Positions 1 through 56,015 of a stretch of 64,000 nucleotides of DNA are shown in pieces. Source of the stretch: Haloterrigena sp. KLK7 (GTDB taxonomy: Archaea; Halobacteriota; Halobacteria; Halobacteriales; Natrialbaceae). The position numbers and the translations under genes were made by a program. The stretch is from positions 930,001 through 994,000 of the forward strand of contig NZ_CP149787.1 of the NCBI RefSeq assembly GCF_037914945.1, in the 5' to 3' direction. The notes beneath the pieces are model-generated. The model was given only the letters and a program-made list of their open reading frames with translations. It did no database searches and had not been told where the DNA came from. Position 1 is the first letter of the stretch, and every line of letters begins with the position of its first letter.

Positions 1-476
1 GCGGTTCCGGCGGCGCCCATCTCGAGGTAGCGCCGCTTCGAGGTGAGCAGGCCGACGGCGAAGGCGACGCCGAACATGCCGACCAGTCGACCGGCGATCG
101 GAATCGCCATGCTGCCGGCGAACAGCCCTGCACCGACGAGGAGCACCAGCGCGAGAAACGCCCGCGGCGAGAAGTAGTCGCCCGGCGAGCGCCCCGGCGT
201 GAGCCGGGACCGCAACCGTCCGAGCCGCGAGCCCGACGACTCCGGGGACGCGTCCGCAGCCGGCGCGGGGCCGTCGGACGACCGCACCGAGTCGGTCCCG
301 AGCGGATCGTCGGCGGCTCCGACGTCCGCGCCCGCGTCCGGTCGATTCTCCGGCGTCGAGGCCGTTCCGGTCCCGGGATCGGCCTCGACGTCCGACTCCG
401 AGAGCAGGCTCTCGGTCTCCTCGAGGAGGTCGTCGGTGTCCCGGCTCTCGGTGACCTCGTCCGAGCGGTCGCTCAT
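1..476 (-). CDS. Membrane protein, haloarchaeal, C-terminus outside window
   Basis: Read on the minus strand from the ATG at 476 and open to the window edge (about 158 codons visible). The first ~100 residues are acidic, Ser/Asp/Glu rich and low in complexity. After them come a short basic stretch (GRLRSRLTPGR) and at least two hydrophobic segments (FLALVLLVGAGLFAG and GMFGVAFAVGLL), followed by a SKRRYLE motif. The layout is an unstructured cytoplasmic tail followed by membrane helices. It may belong to the DUF456-like haloarchaeal membrane proteins, but this is from general resemblance only. No function is proposed. Confidence 0.7.
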   Translation of the reverse strand, partial: MSDRSDEVTESRDTDDLLEETESLLSESDVEADPGTGTASTPENRPDAGADVGAADDPLGTDSVRSSDGPAPAADASPESSGSRLGRLRSRLTPGRSPGDYFSPRAFLALVLLVGAGLFAGSMAIPIAGRLVGMFGVAFAVGLLTSKRRYLEMGAAGT

Positions 477-556
477 GCGTTCTCGTTGGGCAGCCGACAG
501 CATGGGTCTTTCCCATCGGCCAGAGGATATACGACCGCGGACCGCCCACCGGCGGT

Positions 557-766
557 ATGAGCTGGCTCCCGCTCGCGACGTTCGGCCTCTTCGCGGCCGG
601 CGCCGGCGTCCTCTGTTACGTGCTCGTCGCGAACGTAGAGCCACAGCCGGAGTATCCGGAGCTGATGACCGATCTGGTCCGGCTGCTCGGTCTGGGGATC
701 GCGCTCGGCGGGCTCGCGATCGGTGCCGTCTTCCTGCGGGCCGCTGCCGGTGCGTACGTGTCGTGA
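557..766 (+). CDS. Small two-helix membrane protein
   Basis: A 69-residue protein starting MSWLPLATFG. It has two hydrophobic segments (about residues 4-26 and 42-66) with an acidic linker (PQPEYPELMTD) between them, so a helical hairpin in the membrane is likely. Third codon positions are strongly G/C like those of neighbouring genes, which supports coding. It is divergent from the membrane protein starting at 476 and upstream of another small membrane protein at 953. Function unknown. Confidence 0.6.
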   Translation: MSWLPLATFGLFAAGAGVLCYVLVANVEPQPEYPELMTDLVRLLGLGIALGGLAIGAVFLRAAAGAYVS

Positions 767-779
767 GTCGACGGTCGTC

Positions 780-830
780 GGCGTTCGACTGTCATCGTCG
801 GACCGGCGGCGTTCGTCTGTTATCGTCGGA
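780..830. repeat. Short direct repeat, 23 nt x 2
   Basis: Two copies of a 23-nt unit (780-802 and 808-830) beginning GGCGTTCG and ending TCGTCGGA match at 21 of 23 positions, with a GGCGG-rich spacer. A third, more degenerate GGCGGATC stretch follows. It lies in the gap between two small membrane-protein genes. Confidence 0.5.
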
Positions 831-952
831 TGGGCGGCGGATCATCATCGGCGGATCGCCACCGTCGTTCGCCGGCCGAGCGGAGACGAACGTTCTCGAC
901 TCTCGAGTCGTGGGGCCCTCCCTTATCACGCTGGCCGCGGTAGCAACGACGG

Positions 953-55412: not shown

Positions 55413-55434
55413 TGCGAGGGTTGGGATTTGAACC
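55413..55434. repeat. Duplicate of the tRNA-Leu 3' end (attachment-like)
   Basis: TGCGAGGGTTGGGATTTGAACC (22 bp, 55413-55434) is identical to 55530-55551, the part of tRNA-Leu covering the T arm and acceptor with the discriminator base. The copies are 117 bp apart in direct orientation. A further T-arm-like stretch in the opposite sense lies at about 55475-55500. Such repeats arise when an element integrates at a tRNA gene. Confidence 0.7.
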
Positions 55435-55529
55435 ACGCCCGAGAACCTACTCGCGTCGCTTGCAGAACCTCGGTCTGATTCAAATCCCTCGTCTCGCAGA
55501 CACGACTCTCACTGTCGTTCGAGTCGGTA

Positions 55530-55613
55530 TGCGAGGGTTGGGATTTGAACCCAAGGACCCCTACGGGAGCGGGTCTTAAGCCCACCGCCGTTGGCCTGCT
55601 TGGCTACCCTCGC
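55530..55613 (-). tRNA. tRNA-Leu (anticodon UAA)
   Basis: 84 nt on the minus strand. Acceptor GCGAGGG pairs with CCCUCGC, the discriminator is A, and the long variable arm fits a class II leucine tRNA. The anticodon loop CTTAAGA (read on the minus strand) gives UAA. The T arm is GGGTTCAAATCCC. No CCA is encoded. The 3' end is duplicated at 55413-55434. Confidence 0.95.
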
Positions 55614-56015
55614 ACAGAAGCGCACTCGAGGGTAGTCGTCCCCCGGGAATGTGCGTTTCGATGTTCGCCTCCCGAACGACTGCGGCGGGTCTGCGTCGTG
55701 ATTGCGGTCACTCGACGCTCAGCGATCGAGTCTGGCACGAATCCACGTCGATCGATGGCGCAGGCGCGTCCCTGTACAGCGCGGGCGGTGTGCTCAAAGC
55801 GTGCCCGTTCGGAGAAACCGAATCCGTTAGTCCCACAATCTGTCGGGGGAGAATGTACGTTCGTTGCAATACAATTTAGAGACGGATTCGCGTGTCTACT
55901 GATGTGGGCTGTTTTTGCAAGCCAAACGCACACCCACGATCGTCCGATTCTCGTAGTATGGATTCGCTAGTAAACGGCGGCGAGCGGTGTCGAAACGCGA
56001 TGGTGGTGGTTCGCG
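55614..56015. other. 402-bp gap between tRNA-Leu and TRAP operon
   Basis: Lower GC than most of the window in its last 150 bp, with AT-rich stretches (CAATACAATTTAGAG near 55874) that may belong to the TRAP promoter. A 109-codon frame on the minus strand and a 141-codon frame on the plus strand have no protein-like pattern. Nothing else recognised. Confidence 0.35.

Follow-up and report, generated by a model that had tools for sequence, protein, structure and literature searches.

What does an exact second copy of the 3' end of a tRNA gene record when it lies scarcely more than a hundred base pairs from the original? The question is raised by the tRNA-Leu(UAA) gene of Haloterrigena sp. KLK7 (assembly GCF_037914945.1, contig NZ_CP149787.1, positions 930,001 to 994,000; these 64,000 nucleotides are here called the window), where TGCGAGGGTTGGGATTTGAACC occurs at both 55413-55434 and 55530-55551, in the same orientation and with a start-to-start distance of 117 bp. 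The part of the tRNA that is duplicated comprises positions 54-73, from the T-loop to the discriminator. An initial annotation took the copy for the att-site signature of an integrated element and the interval for an excision scar or decayed end. Our analysis indicates instead that the interval is very probably a complete unit of the type known in Escherichia coli as tRNA-linked repeats (TLRs), and the fuller explanation that we favour, with some reserve, is that it belongs to a class-wide haloarchaeal family of tRNA-linked hairpin units that grows by cassette-like addition. The anchoring tRNA and the parts of the unit are as follows.

55530..55613, minus strand: tRNA-Leu(UAA), the anchor (ARAGORN 55529-55614; Rfam RF00005, 50.1 bits)
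55413..55529, minus strand: complete tRNA-linked unit, 117 bp (covariance-model hit, E 1.7e-15)
55500..55528, minus strand: hairpin H1, GACTCGAACGACAGTGAGAGTC type, directly 3' of the tRNA (predicted fold; same type in other units)
55479..55488, minus strand: left arm, inverted T-loop plus T-stem 3' strand, GGGATTTGAA on the tRNA sense strand (tRNA-specific at 57-65)
55435..55478, minus strand: centre stem of family f1, TCAGACCGAGGTTCTGC...AGGTTCTCGGGCGT
55413..55434, minus strand: direct copy of the tRNA-Leu 3' end, far edge of the unit (22/22 identical)

Much of what first drew attention to this locus was borne out. The direct copy is exact over all 22 bp, and we accept it as a sign of insertion at the tRNA 3' end; the opposite-sense T-arm-like sequence that had been noticed is both real and meaningful, corresponding to TTCAAATCCC at 55479-55488, the inverted left arm inside the unit. 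The interval was also correctly said to hold no integrase, its length leaving no room for genes, and none was found among the adjacent genes tested in the window (response regulator, DUF7344, DctP and DctM). By contrast, the idea that the interval is what one integrated element left behind on excision, or its decayed end, proved mostly wrong. Duplication of a tRNA 3' end is indeed the usual att sign (PMC8371274; PMC3119063), yet the complete architecture found here is repeated at many tRNAs in many genera and families, and longer insertions leave longer tRNA copies, making a scar a scarcely credible explanation.

In the host genome, the 300 bp downstream of 21/48 tRNAs contained a copy of the tRNA's own 3' end (score of at least 14), compared with 1/48 upstream and 1.5% with swapped ends, so these copies are not due to chance. 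The full anatomy was present at many tRNAs of this genome, one of them tRNA-Ser(CGA), whose unit shares its centre with the window unit but carries the 3' end of tRNA-Ser itself. Matches within the genus were located behind tRNA-Gly, Leu, Thr, Pro, Arg, Lys and Val. Units were detected with a hairpin covariance model in 119/121 genomes and 29/29 genera of the family Natrialbaceae and in 171/242 genomes of the class, whilst all positive genomes in a phylum-wide draw (25/25) were Halobacteria.

Association with tRNA genes was also evident from a pattern, GACCGAGGTTCTG-N2..24-CAGGTTCTCGG, that represents the centre-stem sequence alone and includes no tRNA bases. This pattern had 84 copies in 80 fetched loci, of which 74 had a same-strand tRNA no more than 400 bp to their 5' side, six further copies lay behind intron-containing tRNA-Trp or tRNA-Lys, and one was the outer unit in a tRNA-Ser array. 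Apparent tRNA-free copies were resolved as those intron-containing tRNA-Trp and tRNA-Lys genes. Altogether, 81/84 copies closely followed the 3' end of a tRNA gene and shared its orientation; the other three were cut off where the fetched sequence stopped, although a tRNA-like direct copy could still be made out. Every named match to the pattern came from Halobacteria. Phage records yielded just two weak, chance-like matches to the unit and plasmid records a single match, on a Natronorubrum bangense megaplasmid. On N. bangense plasmid unnamed1 (265149-281223), a ribosomal protein operon was observed together with an f1 unit, which sits close to TRAP transporter genes in an interval for which no genes are listed. 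Genome-wide GCGAGCGNAGCGAGC palindromes were considered as a source of centres and rejected, being only weakly above shuffles in the window (12 vs 6.6).

Across the family, the order 3' from the tRNA is hairpin H1, a short spacer, the left arm, the centre stem, the motif [GC]CGTRG and the direct copy; the units are non-coding, and [GC]CGTRG is conserved before the direct copy across several centre families. The direct copy tracks its own tRNA over positions 54-73, with a match of 0.66-1.00 as against 0.2-0.7 for swapped tRNAs at 62-73. In a position profile, the left arm tracks its own tRNA only at 57-65 and is near background beyond, and left arm and direct copy are both clearly above swapped-tRNA controls. 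The left arm (T-loop and T-stem 3' strand, inverted) and the direct copy together form the outer stem of a hairpin. Of about 165 apical loops, most (94) had the form of a C(GNA)G triloop when read on the tRNA-sense strand, a loop that is exceptionally stable in DNA. In several units one extra base separates positions 57 and 58 (GTTCA[C]AATCC), and the inserted form of the copied T-loop, GTTCACAATC, recurs across many tRNAs and genera (loci L069, L080, L088, L091, L094, L105, L106, L110, L117 and L146).

Short palindromic elements flanked by a directly duplicated target might also be produced by a transposon resembling miniature inverted-repeat transposable elements (MITEs) or repetitive extragenic palindromes (REPs), which would duplicate about 20 bp of target at tRNA ends through an insertion sequence (IS) or casposase-type enzyme; casposons are known to target tRNA genes. 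We consider this very unlikely, since tRNA 54-73 is the target in every case, target-site duplication leaves unexplained the tRNA specificity of the internal arm as well, and 20 bp exceeds the target duplication of casposons (14-15 bp). A retro-copy of mature tRNA was likewise judged unlikely, because the archaeal copies shown carry no CCA.

Arrays directly 3' of the tRNA gene hold up to five units per locus, as exemplified by four different units behind a Natronococcus tRNA-Ser(CGA) and three identical 111-bp units behind a Haladaptatus tRNA-Lys. In 22 arrays the first direct copy resembled the tRNA more closely than the last one did, and in 2 the reverse held (p = 3.6e-5). At tRNA-Trp in loci L095 and L127, the same H1 is joined to unrelated centres, the break falling just after TTTGAA, the inverted T-loop, and one centre occurs at many isotypes with unrelated H1 (921/1150 similar-centre pairs were between isotypes). 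Orthologous tRNAs of two congeneric genomes, G000 and G005, have mostly well conserved upstream flanks and differ in their units; downstream flanks are conserved at several unit-free tRNAs. The initial annotation had proposed looking for variant inserts in related strains, and one is found at tRNA-Leu(UAA) itself: +1..752 of G000 aligns to +116..900 of G005, and the extra 115-bp unit of G005 sits exactly between the tRNA and the shared downstream sequence. The reverse case, one extra unit in G000, was observed at tRNA-Pro(GGG) and tRNA-Arg(UCU). A newly gained proximal unit has an H1 and a centre unlike those of the resident units.

These comparisons bear on whether arrays could arise passively, by tandem duplication, template switching and gene conversion at tRNA 3' ends, with polyploidy helping and without dedicated machinery. 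Identical tandem units in L128 and alternating A-B-A arrays in L206 would be compatible with such an origin, and short inverted repeats favour template switching. Against it stand the dissimilarity of new proximal units to resident ones, the presence of the same centre at many tRNA types and the lack of any copy seen away from tRNAs, and we regard passive recombination as unlikely.

A different possibility is that the units serve the host as RNA elements, either structured tRNA trailers or small RNAs that selection retains for a part in termination, regulation or 3' processing; such a role has been proposed for E. coli rrA/rrB/rrF. The stable conserved folds and an orientation that is always in the tRNA's sense are consistent with this, and in E. 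coli the TLRs rrA/B/F give rise to transcripts and bind both Hfq and CsrA (PMC8144298). However, at sites altered in the distal copy the left arm has not changed with it: the arm sides with the proximal copy in 40 cases, as against 13 for the distal one. On this count the chromosomal hairpin is not strongly maintained after insertion, with the caveat that neutral decay of the distal copy alone could yield the same count; it suggests a fold that matters during unit movement rather than a continuously needed RNA fold. Moreover, a scored copy is absent at more than half of host tRNAs, units are gained or lost between congeners, and the loops are mostly C(GNA)G triloops, not RNA-type tetraloops. 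A host RNA role therefore appears improbable, to about the same degree as passive recombination.

Larger rearrangements were also seen around units. In L206 (3198-4934), tRNA-Asp and its unit array are duplicated as a block of approximately 1.3 kb. In two other genomes, longer insertions at tRNA-Gly(UCC) adjoin units and duplicate a longer 3' half of the tRNA that starts in the anticodon stem or loop. These insertions (L205:5172-7226, approximately 2 kb; L204:4884-6376, approximately 1.5 kb) lie between two similar units with a longer tRNA copy as the far border, as if the incoming element carried the tRNA 3' half plus a unit. The genes they bear, encoding a metallo-beta-lactamase (MBL)-fold protein in the 1.5-kb insert of L204 and DUF7342 in the 2-kb insert of L205, were considered as unit cargo, but because both inserts are next to longer tRNA copies they were treated as separate insertions. 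An integrase remnant suspected by eye in L205 received no support from Pfam or PHROGs.

Comparison of sequences shows that the family has tRNA-matched ends, a near-absolute tRNA association and arrays, that centres are exchanged between inverted T-loop arms, and that whole units are gained precisely next to the tRNA, which is regenerated. It is likely that the units were inserted as cassettes next to the tRNA. We infer that a unit would be added by recombination through the T-loop-to-acceptor sequence, an addition that would leave the tRNA intact and push older copies outward. The substrate would be the folded hairpin, with its inverted T-arm paired with the T-arm copy, much like an integron attC site. 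Such a scheme would involve single-strand folding, a recombinase and mobilisation in trans, for which the most likely enzyme is a putative tyrosine recombinase acting in trans; that the chemistry is of the tyrosine-recombinase/attC-like kind is possible, though doubtful.

Several points weigh against cassette-like addition. No recombinase was linked to the units, whose mobility is deduced purely from comparison, and no unit was seen at a non-tRNA site among the copies examined. Identical centres that occur at many tRNA types, each time with tRNA-specific ends, need an extra step, either end copying or gene conversion, beyond simple site-specific integration, and gene conversion with the tRNA could also account for array polarity. 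The position profile of the left arm used a fixed arm position and is unbiased, whilst the other left-arm test picked arms by similarity. Finally, some E. coli TLRs lie behind 5S rRNA, which has no T-loop, and so a T-loop-specific enzyme would not cover the whole kind.

Among known systems, several mobile elements also invite comparison. A casposon or MITE would be expected to have Cas1 or a transposase, terminal inverted repeats and a target-site duplication, and a direct duplication is seen in the window unit. Archaeal tyrosine-integrase elements likewise use the tRNA 3' end as a target and leave a direct repeat at the far edge, whereas the haloarchaeal units carry no gene, contain an internal inverted T-arm and recur at many tRNA types per genome. 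Integron attC sites share the imperfect palindrome with a variable terminal structure, and their cassettes the arrangement in arrays with newer copies apparently beside the anchor; the archaeal core, GTTCAAA/GTTCGAA, however, does not fit GTTRRRY, there is no integrase in the tested window neighbours and no coding cassette, and the anchor is a tRNA. Haloarchaeal tRNA duplications have been reported as prophage marks, with no unit described in the passages concerned (PMC3119063), and the partial tRNAs next to full copies in Haloferax gibbonsii, which are listed there without repeat structure or explanation (PMC7921747), are possibly the same units. The haloarchaeal family thus appears uncharted so far in the open-access literature, although a prior description may exist, and it cautions against taking every short copy of a tRNA 3' end in a haloarchaeal genome for the mark of a provirus or integrated plasmid, since often it is not.

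The closest likeness is to the TLRs of E. coli, in which 18-19 bp at the 3' end are identical to the upstream tRNA or rRNA, with one to five copies per locus and no known function other than that proposed for three rRNA-linked examples (PMC8144298, citing the 178-bp tyrT repeat, Egan and Landy 1978, and Rudd 1999). The archaeal units share with them a position directly 3' of the tRNA, a number of 1-5 per locus and an end that copies the upstream tRNA 3' end. In E. coli K-12 the direct copy begins at or next to tRNA position 58 at tyrV, proK and lysV, and these three loci, to which the comparison by anatomy was confined, each contain an inverted T-arm as in the archaeal units (tyrV, GGGGAAGGAT; lysV, GATTCGAACCTGC; proK, GAGGATGAGAACCTCC), of which no mention was found in the passages of the TLR literature covered. 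The TLRs at tyrV (L211), proK (L216) and lysV (L219) also contain C(GNA)G hairpins. In contrast, most of the archaeal units are shorter, with about 85-165 bp preceding the copy; they are far more frequent, occurring across Halobacteria, and the copies shown end without CCA, whilst the E. coli set also stands behind 5S rRNA. The E. coli repeats have been unexplained since 1978, with about 22 copies for study, whereas the abundant, fast-changing archaeal family with tRNA-matched arms offers hundreds of natural insertions, exchanged centres and empty sites, making origin and mechanism testable by comparison and in genetically tractable haloarchaea. As a more speculative extension, Halobacteria might carry a tRNA-anchored, gene-free cassette system with an attC-like fold and a recombinase in trans, which would add hairpin units next to tRNA genes, and the E. 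coli TLRs would be the bacterial branch of this kind of mobile unit.
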